Origin: Pleurocapsa minor GSE-CHR-MK 17-07R
GTDB lineage: Bacteria; Chloroflexota; Anaerolineae; Aggregatilineales; Phototrophicaceae
Assembly (NCBI GenBank): GCA_019359125.1
Contig: JAHHHY010000007.1
Location: 23,355-87,354 of the forward strand
Direction: 5' to 3'
DNA length: 64,000 nt
In this document: positions 26,986 through 59,176 of the stretch, piece by piece
How positions within the stretch are numbered: position 1 is the stretch's first letter
Layout of the letters: every line of letters begins with the position of its first letter
The notes under the pieces: model-generated
Told to the model about the DNA's origin: nothing
The model's database searches: none
What the model saw: only the letters and a program-made list of their open reading frames with translations
Position numbers and translations under genes: made by a program

Positions 26986-27638
26986 ATCTGACCCGCGCCG
27001 AGCTGGCCGCGGAAGAAATTCGCCGGAATATCATCGCCGGGGGCTATCTGTCGGGCGAACGGCTGGTCGAAATGACCCTGGCGCGCCGCCTCGGCATCAG
27101 CCAGATCACCGTGCGTGACGCGCTGCGCGTGCTGGAGCAGCAGGGCTGGGTGGTGAAGCAGCCCCGGCGCGGCGTCTACGTGCGCGACTTCACGCCGGAA
27201 ACCGCCAGCGAGCTGTATATCCTGTTTGGCGCGATCGAGCGCACCGTGATCGACGCCCTGTGCAGCCTGTCCTCGCGCAAGACCATCCTGAAGCCTGCCT
27301 ATGCCTGCCTGGACGCCGCCGAGGCGCATTTCCTGCGCGGCCAGCGCCGCGAGGGCATCGGCCAGTTGTTCGATACGCATGTTACGCTGGCCGAGGCCAC
27401 CCGCCGCGAACAGACGATGCAACTGCTGAAAGGCATCATCAACCAGGCGCGCCTGCTGGAGGCGATGCGTCAGTCGCGCATTCCCAGCAATGCTAATGAA
27501 TTCAATCAGTACGTGGCCGCGCACCGGACGATGTTCCTGCATATCGAGCACGGGGCCGTCGCCGAGGCACATCAGCAGCTTGGGCTGATTCTGAACACGT
27601 ATACGCAGAATGTGCTGGACGCGCTGACCGTGCGCTGA
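26973..27638 (+). CDS. GntR family transcriptional regulator (FadR subgroup)
   Basis: wHTH ERLVEMTLARRLGISQITVRDALRVLEQQGWVVKQPRRGVYVRDF, FCD-like C-terminus. Confidence 0.9.
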   Translation: MDAVNLTRAELAAEEIRRNIIAGGYLSGERLVEMTLARRLGISQITVRDALRVLEQQGWVVKQPRRGVYVRDFTPETASELYILFGAIERTVIDALCSLSSRKTILKPAYACLDAAEAHFLRGQRREGIGQLFDTHVTLAEATRREQTMQLLKGIINQARLLEAMRQSRIPSNANEFNQYVAAHRTMFLHIEHGAVAEAHQQLGLILNTYTQNVLDALTVR

Positions 27639-27744: not shown

Positions 27745-27773
27745 TTGACAATCTTCTCTGGATAGCGTACATT
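27745..27773 (+). promoter_or_regulatory. Promoter of Cys-leader/cysteine synthase transcript
   Basis: TTGACA (27745-27750), 17-bp spacer, TACATT (27768-27773); predicted TSS near 27780. Confidence 0.7.
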
Positions 27774-27780
27774 CAGAAGC

Positions 27781-27888
27781 ATGAGACACATGAGCACTTC
27801 CACCATCAATCATTCTGTGAACGCCTGTTGTTGTTGTTGTCCGGCAAGCGGGGTTACCCCTTACCTTCACGACGGCACGCGCGTTTAA
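27781..27888 (+). CDS. Leader peptide MRHMSTSTINHSVNACCCCCPASGVTPYLHDGTRV with five consecutive Cys codons
   Basis: In-frame ATGs at 27781 and 27790, TGT x5 at 27826-27840, TAA at 27886-27888; upstream of cysteine synthase; too short for the ORF track. Confidence 0.8.
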   Translation: MRHMSTSTINHSVNACCCCCPASGVTPYLHDGTRV

Positions 27889-27910
27889 GCAGCACACACG
27901 ACAAACGAAG

Positions 27911-27979
27911 CGCAGCCAGAAGGCAGGACGCCCCGAGGACTACTCCGACGGGCGTTTTGTTTTTCTGGCTGCGTTTTTT
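27911..27979 (+). terminator. Nested intrinsic terminator/attenuator upstream of cysteine synthase
   Basis: Outer stem CGCAGCCAGAA (27911-27921)/TTCTGGCTGCG (27963-27973) then T6; inner stem ACGCCC (27928-27933)/GGGCGT (27950-27955) then TTTTGTTTTT. Confidence 0.8.
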
Positions 27980-28012
27980 AGTGCATAAGCACAATGAGGA
28001 GTATCAGGCAAG

Positions 28013-28981
28013 ATGATGCTGACCCCGATGACCATGACTGCTGCACCTTCTGCCACCACCCAGGCCGCGCGCCTGGAATCGCTGATTGGCAATACGCCGC
28101 TGCTGGCGTTCCGCAGCATCACGGCCCACCTGCCGGAGACGGTGCAGGTGTTCGCCAAGGCGGAATGGACCAATCCCGGTGGCAGCGTGAAGGACCGCGC
28201 AGCCGCCAATATCGTGCGCCAGGCCGAGGCATCCGGCCGGCTGGGCAAGGGCCAGATTCTGCTGGACAGCACGAGCGGCAACACCGGCATCGCGTATGCC
28301 ATGCTGGGTGCCGCCAAAGGCTTCAAGGTGAAGCTGTTCCTGCCGGCCAATGCCAGCCCGGAGCGCATCGCCATCCTGCGCGCCTATGGCGCCGAGCTGG
28401 TGCTGACCGACCCGCTGGAAGGCTCTGACGGCGCGATTCGTGCCGTGCGCGAACTGGTCGCGTCTGACCCGGACACCTATTTCTATGCCGACCAGTACAA
28501 CAATCCGGCCAACTGGCAGGCCCACTACAACAGCACCGGCGTGGAAATCTGGAATCAGACCGATGGCCAGGTGACTCATTTCATCGCCGGGCTGGGCACC
28601 AGCGGCACCATGATGGGCACCGGCCGCCGCCTGAAGGATTACGCGGCCGACGTGCAGATCATCGCCATCCAGCCGGATTCACCATTCCACGGGCTGGAAG
28701 GCCTGAAGCACATGCCCACGGCCATCAAGCCTGGCATCTATGACGAATTTTTCCCGGATCGCCAGATGGGCATCTCCACCGAGGACACGTACGTCATGGC
28801 GCGCCGCCTCGCCCGCGAAGAAGGCTACCTGGTTGGCATCAGCTCCGCGTCGGCCATGGTGGGCGCGCTGCAGGTGGCCGAAGAGCTGGCCGGACGCGGG
28901 GAATCCGGCACGATCGTGACGCTGTTCCCCGACAACGCCTATAAGTACCTGAGCGACAAGGCGGTGTGGGGCACGGCGTAG
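28013..28981 (+). CDS. Cysteine synthase (PLP-dependent, CysK/CysM family)
   Basis: LIGNTPLLAF, NPGGSVKDRAAANIV, STSGNTGIAYAMLGAAKGFKVKLFLP, GLGTSGTMMGTGR. Confidence 0.93.
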   Translation: MMLTPMTMTAAPSATTQAARLESLIGNTPLLAFRSITAHLPETVQVFAKAEWTNPGGSVKDRAAANIVRQAEASGRLGKGQILLDSTSGNTGIAYAMLGAAKGFKVKLFLPANASPERIAILRAYGAELVLTDPLEGSDGAIRAVRELVASDPDTYFYADQYNNPANWQAHYNSTGVEIWNQTDGQVTHFIAGLGTSGTMMGTGRRLKDYAADVQIIAIQPDSPFHGLEGLKHMPTAIKPGIYDEFFPDRQMGISTEDTYVMARRLAREEGYLVGISSASAMVGALQVAEELAGRGESGTIVTLFPDNAYKYLSDKAVWGTA

Positions 28982-40312: not shown

Positions 40313-41686
40313 TTACCACGAGCTGCGCACGGTATAGGTCAGCACGGTTTCGCCTTTGGGGGGCACGGTCAGCCTGAACTCGCACATGCTCTGGTCGATT
40401 TTATCATACGGATGTGTCGCCTGAGTAATGCGCCACTCGCTGTAGCCGCTGAAATTCTCCAGCAGGCGCACCTCGACCGGCTTTTCCGCCTTGCGGTTGC
40501 GCACGGTGATTTTATAGCTATGCTCAGCGCCGGAATTGCCCAGTCTGCGGAAATTGGTGTGCGCGCGTTCGCCCACGATATCGAACGGCTTGCCCAACAC
40601 CAGCGAGACTTTCTCGCCTTTCGCGGTGTGGTCCAGCCGATCCTCGCCAACCAGCAGCGGCGCGCCATCGGTATCCTTCTGGTAAATGCGCACGCGCCCG
40701 GCGGGCAGGGCCGCATCCATGCCGCGCTCGTCGGTTTCAAATTCAAGGAACTGGCGGAAATTGAGCGACTGCGTGTCGTTGGGCGCAAAGTCTGCCTTGG
40801 GGTGCCAGTACAGGCTGCTGGTCGCCTTGTATTCCAGTTTTGCCGGGATGCCGGGCTTGTGGATGAACTCGACCTGCTTCTGTTCGTTTGCGCTTAAGTT
40901 GACACTGCGTTCAATTTCGTACAGTTTGTACTCTGAAAATTCGCGCTGGGCCACCTTCGGCGCGCCGCCCATGGCGCGGGCGGGCATCGGCGCAGACTGC
41001 ATGATGACCATTGGCGGCGGTTCTGGCAGGCGATTGACCTCTCCGGCGATCAGCTTCACGCGGGCATTCTCAAAGCTGGCGCTGCTGCTGTTGTCAAACG
41101 TGACCATGCCCGTCGCATCCAAGGCATCGCTGCCATCCGCCACCAGCAGCACATAATCCGCTGTCCAGGTGATGCCCCCGGCCAGATAGGTCAGCTCCAG
41201 CTCCTGCTGGCCCGAGGCCGTGCTGTCCAGCAGCCAGCGCAGGGTGGGACGCGTCAGCAGGCCGCCGGGAAGCTGGGGAAAGCGCATATCGCGCACCTTG
41301 TCCTGGCGCACGACGATCACCTGGCCGTCGCCCGTCCGCAGGATGATGTCGCCGCCCTGGCCGCTGAGCAGCGCCCCTTCGTAAAAGGTGCCGTCCTCGG
41401 TGATGATGCCCACCACCTGGTCGATGTAGCGTTTCAGCAGGGCATAGCTGTCCACCAGGTCGTAGGCATAGCTCTGCTCGACGACGCCGACACTGCCCGG
41501 CGCGGTGCGCGAGGCCAGCTGAATCGAGGTGCGGTCGATCTGCTCGCTCACATCGGTGAAGTCCAGCCTGTTTTCGCCCTCGGCCAGCGTGAACAGACGC
41601 CGGTCCTGCACCAGCGCGGTGCCGATGTTATACACGGTGAGGGCGACATGCGTGCGCTCTCCACTGCCCTGTACGGTATGCATCAT
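40313..41686 (-). CDS. DUF4139-type protein (no signal peptide)
   Basis: LTYLAGGITWTADYVLLV, paralogous to 41835..43316. Confidence 0.78.
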   Translation of the reverse strand: MMHTVQGSGERTHVALTVYNIGTALVQDRRLFTLAEGENRLDFTDVSEQIDRTSIQLASRTAPGSVGVVEQSYAYDLVDSYALLKRYIDQVVGIITEDGTFYEGALLSGQGGDIILRTGDGQVIVVRQDKVRDMRFPQLPGGLLTRPTLRWLLDSTASGQQELELTYLAGGITWTADYVLLVADGSDALDATGMVTFDNSSSASFENARVKLIAGEVNRLPEPPPMVIMQSAPMPARAMGGAPKVAQREFSEYKLYEIERSVNLSANEQKQVEFIHKPGIPAKLEYKATSSLYWHPKADFAPNDTQSLNFRQFLEFETDERGMDAALPAGRVRIYQKDTDGAPLLVGEDRLDHTAKGEKVSLVLGKPFDIVGERAHTNFRRLGNSGAEHSYKITVRNRKAEKPVEVRLLENFSGYSEWRITQATHPYDKIDQSMCEFRLTVPPKGETVLTYTVRSSW

Positions 41687-43558: not shown

Positions 43559-44296
43559 TTAGCTCTGCACCTCGACGCCGTTGACGATGATCGTCACCGG
43601 GGTGTCAAACTGTCCGTCCAGTTGAATCGTTTCCTCGTAGGGAATCAGCATCATGGTGCAGATCTGGCCTTCTGGCACGACCTGATTGATCGACACGTAC
43701 ACGGCGCTGCCTTCGCGGTACTGCTGAATTTCGACCGGCAGTTCTTCGCAGCCGGTGGGCAGCGAGCCGGTCACGGTAATAGTGATGTCCCAGGGGGTGC
43801 TGCGCGTCTGTACTGCGGTCACAGCATCCACCACGATCGGCATCAGATTCACGGCCTGTGCAGGGGCCGCGTCCTGGTTGGCGACGATGCCGTTGACGAT
43901 CACGGTCACGCCCAGGGGGTAGTTGCCTTCAAGCTGCACGGTCTCGATGTAGGGCACCAGCATCATCGGGCAGTTGGGCGCGCCGACGACGACCTGGCCG
44001 ATGCTCACGAAGACGGTGTTGCCCTCCTGAAATTCGACTGTTTCGATGTCCAGATCGGTGCAGCCGGTCGGCAGCGTGCCGTTCACGATCAGGCTGATGC
44101 GCGCGGGCACTTCCGACGTGAAGTAGGCAACCGCGCTCTCCACGTCCACCGGGAAGACCTGGGCATCCGTGAAGATGATTTCCGGCGTCGGCGTCGGCGT
44201 CATCATCATCTGGACAGGTTCCGGGTTGCTCTCGACCCGCACAGGTGTCGTGATGCCGAAAAACAGCAGCAACAGCAGCAGGATTAATTCCAACAT
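43559..44296 (-). CDS. Membrane-anchored/secreted protein with tandem duplicated domain
   Basis: Two copies of [GTLPTGCxxLxxExxxxxEGxxVxVSIxQVVxxxxxCxMMLxPYxETxQLxGxxxxxVTxIVNG]. Confidence 0.72.
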   Translation of the reverse strand: MLELILLLLLLFFGITTPVRVESNPEPVQMMMTPTPTPEIIFTDAQVFPVDVESAVAYFTSEVPARISLIVNGTLPTGCTDLDIETVEFQEGNTVFVSIGQVVVGAPNCPMMLVPYIETVQLEGNYPLGVTVIVNGIVANQDAAPAQAVNLMPIVVDAVTAVQTRSTPWDITITVTGSLPTGCEELPVEIQQYREGSAVYVSINQVVPEGQICTMMLIPYEETIQLDGQFDTPVTIIVNGVEVQS

Positions 44297-58376: not shown

Positions 58377-59176
58377 CCGTCCGGCCGATCATGCGCGGCG
58401 GCGGGACGTTGTTCTGGCGCGGCGGGACGGCCATCGGCGTGCTGGGGCTGCATGGCTTCACCGCGACGCCATCGGAAATAGGCTGGCTGGGGGCCGACCT
58501 GCATGGCGCGGGGCATACCGTACTGCTGCCGCGCCTGTTTGCCCACGGCACCGACCCGCGCGATATGGCGCGCGCCCGCTGGAAAGACTGGCTGGCCTCG
58601 GCCTGTGACGGGCTGGCGGTGCTGTCCGCCAGCTGTGAGCGCGTGATCGTGGTCGGGCACTCGATGGGCGGGATGCTGGCCATGCTGCTGGCCGCCCATG
58701 CCCAGCCGCAGGACAGGCTGGCGGGCGCGGCGGTGCTGGCGTCACCGATTCCGCTGCCTGATGCGCTGCTGCGGACGACCCGGCTGGGCAAGCGACTGCG
58801 TCCGTATACGCAGCAGCCGGACACCAGCGATCTGGGTGAAGTGGTGCGTGAGGAACAGGGCCGCCGGGGCGATCCGGTCGTCGGGCGTGTGCGCTATGAC
58901 CTGTGGAGCACGTCCGCGCTGGAACAGCTCGTGCTGCTGAGTAAAGCCGCCGATGCCGCCCTGCCGCAGGTGAGTCTGCCATTGCTGCTGCTGTACAGCA
59001 CGCGGGACGAGACAGCGCCAGCGGTATTTGGCGAGCGCATCGCCGCCCGCGCTGCAACTTCTGACATCACCCTGCGTATATCAGACTACAGGGGACATAT
59101 TGTCACCCAGGATCGCGCCCGTGATGCGGTATTTGCGGAAGTGCGCGAATTTGTCACTCATGCCGCTGGCAGGTGA
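58373..59176 (+). CDS. Alpha/beta hydrolase (carboxylesterase Est30-like)
   Basis: VLGLHGFTATPSEIGWLG, VVGHSMGGMLAMLLA; 4-bp overlap with lspA. Confidence 0.9.
   Translation: MTVRPIMRGGGTLFWRGGTAIGVLGLHGFTATPSEIGWLGADLHGAGHTVLLPRLFAHGTDPRDMARARWKDWLASACDGLAVLSASCERVIVVGHSMGGMLAMLLAAHAQPQDRLAGAAVLASPIPLPDALLRTTRLGKRLRPYTQQPDTSDLGEVVREEQGRRGDPVVGRVRYDLWSTSALEQLVLLSKAADAALPQVSLPLLLLYSTRDETAPAVFGERIAARAATSDITLRISDYRGHIVTQDRARDAVFAEVREFVTHAAGR

Follow-up and report, generated by a model that had tools for sequence, protein, structure and literature searches.

The cysteine synthase gene described here is very probably controlled by a ribosome-mediated transcription attenuator that senses the supply of cysteinyl-tRNA. 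In the window (the whole stretch of 64,000 nucleotides analysed), computational analysis of the DNA upstream of this gene found a short leader ORF containing a run of the cognate codon, an intrinsic terminator, and an antiterminator that excludes the terminator and is freed when the first leader region (region 1) is covered. A cysteine attenuator had been proposed at this site in an earlier note made from the letters alone; conservation of the leader, co-variation of three competing helices (1:2, 2:3 and 3:4) and the terminator now support that reading, all on computational grounds. From these features we infer ribosome stalling, the direction of the response and termination in vivo.

The leader and terminator upstream of cysteine synthase

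The features of the locus are collected in Table 1. The promoter, the 35-codon ORF, the five consecutive TGT codons and the start of the cysteine synthase ORF all lie exactly where the earlier note had placed them. The product of the gene scored 350 bits with the NCBIfam profile cysM and 331 bits with cysKM, both values being below the curated cut-offs. The promoter is the sole sigma-70-like site between positions 27600 and 28100 (shuffled sequences give 0.3), and in nearly all relatives a TTGACA-16/18-TANNNT promoter precedes the leader. Five TGT codons in a row occur once in the 4.85-Mb genome, counting both strands; among long ORFs in the window, Cys accounts for 0.73% of codons, with TGC used over TGT at 99:31. 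Strings of codons resembling a poly-Cys run are also present in the window at 41083, at 58983 and on the minus strand near 44283.

Table 1. Coordinates of the leader, its predicted RNA elements and the downstream gene (window numbering)
Feature	Positions	Strand	Remarks
Sigma-70-like promoter TTGACA-17-TACATT	27745–27773	+	TTGACA 27745–27750; TACATT 27768–27773; 17-nt spacer
35-codon leader peptide ORF	27781–27888	+	MRHMSTSTINHSVNACCCCCPASGVTPYLHDGTRV, then stop; probably leaderless in the window subclade
1:2 hairpin	27815–27892	+	Core 27835–27841 with 27871–27877; spans the final two Cys codons; in competition with the antiterminator
TGT x5, five Cys codons	27826–27840	+	Putative sensing stretch; position of Cys cluster conserved
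Region 2, antiterminator 5′ arm	27849–27868	+	CGGGGT, CCT, CCTTC
Outer terminator stem	27907–27979	+	27907–27923 with 27961–27977; encloses the inner hairpin; second U-tract TTTTTT 27974–27979
Region 3, antiterminator 3′ arm	27919–27935	+	GAAGG, AGG, GCCCCG; also part of the terminator 5′ arm
Inner terminator hairpin	27924–27964	+	27924–27933 with 27950–27959; first U-tract TTTTGTTTTT 27955–27964
Shine-Dalgarno-like GAGGAG of cysteine synthase	27996–28001	+	From sequence; terminator lies upstream, not overlapping
Cysteine synthase, CysK/CysM-like PLP enzyme (PF00291)	28013–28981	+	Putative regulated gene

Transcription of the window leader is expected to start at about 27779–27781, practically at the ATG. 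The suggestion that the leader ORF is leaderless has partial support from promoter spacing: the ATG lies about 5–7 nt from the -10 element, a distance that favours leaderless initiation, both in the window and in two of its close relatives (L002, L012, L018), but in most relatives this distance is about 30 nt or more. Leaderless initiation would thus be a trait of the subclade, outside the core device.

The terminator between the leader and cysteine synthase is real and more elaborate than had been noted, since it is nested and carries two U-tracts. The sequence 27781–28012 folds with an energy of -88.1 kcal/mol (z = -4.3), and none of 200 shuffled sequences folded as well. A simple terminator scan gave no call at this locus, where the stem is both long and nested. 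By a simple rule, two U-tracts 11–45 nt apart were found in 45 of 64 relatives. The two nested terminators may provide a second chance to stop transcription.

Conservation of the leader among relatives

Orthologous cysK genes were collected with their upstream DNA, those from named relatives belonging to Anaerolineae or to Aggregatilineales MAGs (Chloroflexota). The earlier note had made its case depend on conservation of the Cys run and the terminator in homologous loci, and both proved to be conserved: of 67 distinct regions upstream of cysK in Chloroflexota, 64 have, at the same position, a leader with a cluster of two or more Cys codons, together with a complementary antiterminator and a terminator. 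The exceptions were L015 and L041, with a single Cys, and L031, with none. L031 and L046 represent one genome, in which the DNA before the cysK orthologue lacks a leader and consists of GC-rich repetitive sequence along with the last part of a different reading frame; judging from this sequence, regulation of the gene may have been replaced there. Under a stricter rule (at least three Cys within six codons), 56 of 78 loci, some of them the same genome taken from two collections, had a leader on the sense strand as against five on the antisense strand, with 4.3 as the mean for dinucleotide shuffles. The automated procedure picked a chance ORF at a few loci, L029, L039, L042, L065, L077 and L090 among them, and there the true leader was identified separately.

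This class-wide conservation of leader and helices bears on the simplest alternative, namely that the hairpin terminates transcription of the GntR-type gene upstream and that the ORF arose by chance. That gene does lie on the same strand and ends at 27638. A strong promoter, however, stands between it and the hairpin, and the conservation contradicts a chance ORF, so that this explanation is hardly credible.

The Cys clusters themselves vary among relatives, examples being MQLCLCCCCLKCGR.., MFVCACCCLKRGR, MNTMRQNCMCCMCEKRGR, MKHLTCCCCCCQTR, MNTFTYCLCLRRGS and CICPGRGR. The frequent occurrence of CxC or CCCC, motifs which could bind metals, would suit a sensor consisting of the Cys-rich peptide itself, responding to metals, thiols or oxidants instead of to cysteinyl-tRNA supply. 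This is improbable, since the number of Cys per leader ranges from 2 to 6 and their spacing differs, whereas the last Cys codons keep their place relative to helix 1:2; moreover, the targets are cysteine and sulfur-assimilation genes. A riboswitch for cysteine or a sulfur metabolite, or a T-box, with the short ORF incidental, would present a similar terminator and antiterminator, but is more improbable still. At the gathering threshold, Rfam gave no match in 12 relatives, and the scan of the window gave only a sub-threshold match to a eukaryotic IRES. A conserved unpaired core was not seen, and it is the Cys codons and their reading frame that are conserved while the sequence drifts.

Outside Chloroflexota, 4 of 27 loci passed under the strict rule. 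L097 (bacterium HR08) and L108 (an Acidobacteriota MAG) appear genuine; the other two resemble chance hits. In L097 and L108 the Cys-run leaders (MARLCCCRRMRGGSPAVAPTLVS and MAMCCCRRTWDGSPAVAFVS) stand upstream of cysK and are followed by a terminator-like hairpin; from their sequence, they look like genuine instances of the same device, acquired by transfer or convergence.

Three competing helices and the proposed switch

On the 3′ side of the Cys codons, the relatives share the pattern TGTCTGAAGCGGGGCGTTAG..CTTCAGACA and, further on, TGAAGCGCGGAACGCCCC....CCGCGCTTTTTT. Four regions can be delimited: region 1 (TGTCTGAAG with the last Cys codons), region 2 (GGGGCGTTAG..CTTCAGACA), region 3 (TGAAGCGCGG..CGCCCC) and region 4 (CCGCGCTTTT). 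The predicted pairings 1:2, 2:3 (antiterminator) and 3:4 (terminator) are mutually exclusive, which is the geometry of a classical attenuator. Inspection by eye had earlier revealed no long antiterminator, but one exists, 27849–27868 pairing with 27919–27935; the short CGGGG/CCCCG match recorded in the earlier note is the core of this helix.

Co-variation was examined by a partner-swap test on unaligned sequence from 29 leaders, in which each leader's region was paired with the regions of other leaders. According to the fold model, the 1:2 duplex had an energy of -12.5 kcal/mol with its own partner and -9.5 kcal/mol with swapped partners (own better by 3.0), the 2:3 duplex -25.9 and -20.0 kcal/mol (better by 5.9), and the 3:4 duplex -24.9 and -17.4 kcal/mol (better by 7.5); in each case, none of 5000 permutations did as well. 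The control pairings 1:3 and 2:4 in these 29 leaders showed no own-partner gain. In a held-out set of 37 leaders, which included those of other genes, the 2:3 values were -34.3 versus -28.6 kcal/mol (0/5000). In the alignment columns of 1:2 and 3:4, double changes were seen in 18 of 22 pairs and 80% of cells were paired, a result equalled by none of 500 shuffles; these shuffle tests are inflated by the kinship of the sequences, an effect that the swap controls and the held-out set reduce but do not remove. Fixed-column statistics for the GC-rich half of 2:3 were modest (51/500 shuffles for paired cells, 8/500 for the covariation score), probably due to register shifts that blur the columns, and it is because of this weakness that unaligned sequence was used in the partner-swap test.

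Folding with and without occlusion of part of the leader, a kind of check that the earlier note called for, gave a switch. When left unmasked, 27781–27938 folded into the 1:2 hairpin without 2:3, while masking 27781–27848, mimicking a stalled ribosome, changed the fold to 2:3, including the pairing of 27849–27868 with 27919–27935. The full transcript of the window leader folded into the terminator (27907–27977). Across the set of leaders, the full-length RNA folded into 3:4 in 29 of 29 and, with region 1 removed, the intermediate folded into 2:3 (13–23 bp), also in 29 of 29. Even where two of the Cys codons in region 1 were left free, 2:3 outcompeted 1:2 on thermodynamic grounds in 23 of 29 leaders, so that in many relatives the off state would have to depend either on the order of folding or on a ribosome positioned at the stop codon.

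The proposed mechanism is as follows. When cysteine is scarce, the ribosome would stall on the TGT run and cover region 1 (27835–27848), leaving region 2 free to pair with region 3 once this has been transcribed; the terminator would then be blocked and the polymerase would read through into cysK. When cysteine is plentiful, the ribosome would clear the Cys codons. Roughly two leaders in three have their stop codon no more than eight codons past the last Cys, often within region 2, and in most relatives a ribosome at this stop codon would block the antiterminator. The leader ORF of the window extends through region 2 to 27888; the ribosome of this subclade would therefore read through region 2, after which the 1:2 hairpin could re-form, and the off state should lean more on that hairpin. 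In the off state region 3 would pair with region 4, and transcription would stop at either of the nested U-tracts.

Alternatively, the poly-Cys leader might control translation or Rho action, ribosome stalling exposing the Shine-Dalgarno sequence of the next gene or blocking Rho. The nearest described poly-Cys leaders, which are mycobacterial, offer a precedent: actinobacterial cys leader peptides were reported to contain Cys codons with no obvious terminators (Seliverstov et al. 2005, PMC1262725), and later papers call the mycobacterial polycysteine ORFs translation attenuators (PMC13236596, PMC9031893). The present leaders, however, share a strong intrinsic terminator that is nested, has U-tracts and co-varies with the antiterminator, while the cysK Shine-Dalgarno sequence lies downstream of the terminator and takes no part in the switch helices. 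We thus consider control of translation or Rho unlikely, and transcription attenuation remains the preferred reading.

Other genes with the leader, and relation to known systems

A covariance model of the leader was searched over 299 genomes of the class. Leaders were found in 22 of these 299, and in 9 of 399 genomes of the phylum, both figures being undercounts because the strict filters drop leaders that are seen upstream of cysK. Besides classical CysK (L128, L129), the leader preceded genes for ATP sulfurylase (L130, L131; VCCCLTRGCATPR), a rhodanese-type sulfurtransferase (L122, L136) and a DUF4395 protein (L127). That these targets belong to sulfur assimilation is a separate argument for cysteine being the signal. 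In the upstream regions of ATP sulfurylase and DUF4395 genes across the class the leader was not general, with one further clear case, the additional DUF4395 gene L181 (MRFVCSCLRRGR). L130 and L131 belong to one ATP sulfurylase family (f40), and the leader is absent from the majority of the class's ATP sulfurylase genes; another DUF4395 gene, L179, adjoins cysK in genome G086. In the organism's own genome, searched at E ≤ 10, the cysteine synthase locus was the one real leader, L139–L141 having none. Matches L125, L132 and L133, and L124, L134, L137 and L138 in genome G251, were rejected as false, with no Cys leader. The four in G251 are near-identical copies of a dispersed repeat whose core is GCTGTTTCTNGCCGGGG.

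A wider reading, to which we incline slightly, is that these leaders form an uncatalogued, class-wide family of cysteine attenuators. It would comprise a small Anaerolineae regulon for cysteine and sulfur (cysteine synthase, ATP sulfurylase, rhodanese and DUF4395), a nested two-step terminator allowing graded shut-off, and counterparts outside the phylum (bacterium HR08 and Acidobacteriota) that arose by transfer or convergence.

The leader resembles the mycobacterial and actinobacterial poly-Cys leaders in having a short ORF with a Cys run before cysteine or sulfur genes, for which sensing through ribosome speed has been proposed. Polycysteine-encoding short ORFs of mycobacteria, described by Canestrari et al. 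(2020, doi 10.1111/mmi.14498), are reportedly leaderless, and promoter spacing suggests the same for the leader of the window subclade; most Chloroflexota relatives do not look leaderless. The two groups differ in phylum, and while the actinobacterial leaders lack a conserved terminator hairpin and have been described as acting translationally or possibly through Rho, that of Chloroflexota has a nested intrinsic terminator with a co-varying antiterminator. The cognate-codon leader peptide and the exclusive helices 1:2, 2:3 and 3:4 are shared with the trp, his and leu operons of Proteobacteria and with ilvB and trp of Actinobacteria; the cysteine specificity, the nested double terminator, the stop codon often within region 2 and the occurrence in Chloroflexota set it apart from these classical attenuators. 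According to a broad terminator survey of 2010, which does not mention Chloroflexi, leader-peptide systems were previously known from Proteobacteria and Actinobacteria only, the survey adding Firmicutes (PMC2965389). The literature search found no cysteine leader in Chloroflexota, a mention in Lopatovskaya et al. (2010) or Canestrari et al. (2020) being possible. Since the known poly-Cys leaders lack a terminator and no paper on Chloroflexota was found, terminator-based, cysteine-specific, ribosome-mediated attenuation in this phylum would be new within the literature searched.

The leader accounts for a conserved, unannotated short ORF and offers a model with which a new RNA family can be searched for; through shared regulation, it also connects the functionally uncharacterised DUF4395 family with cysteine or sulfur metabolism. 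If the reading is correct, classical ribosome-mediated attenuation would extend to Chloroflexota, the terminator-based form of cysteine attenuation, so far missing, would be supplied, and a clue would be gained to the sensing of cysteine and sulfur supply in uncultured Anaerolineae.
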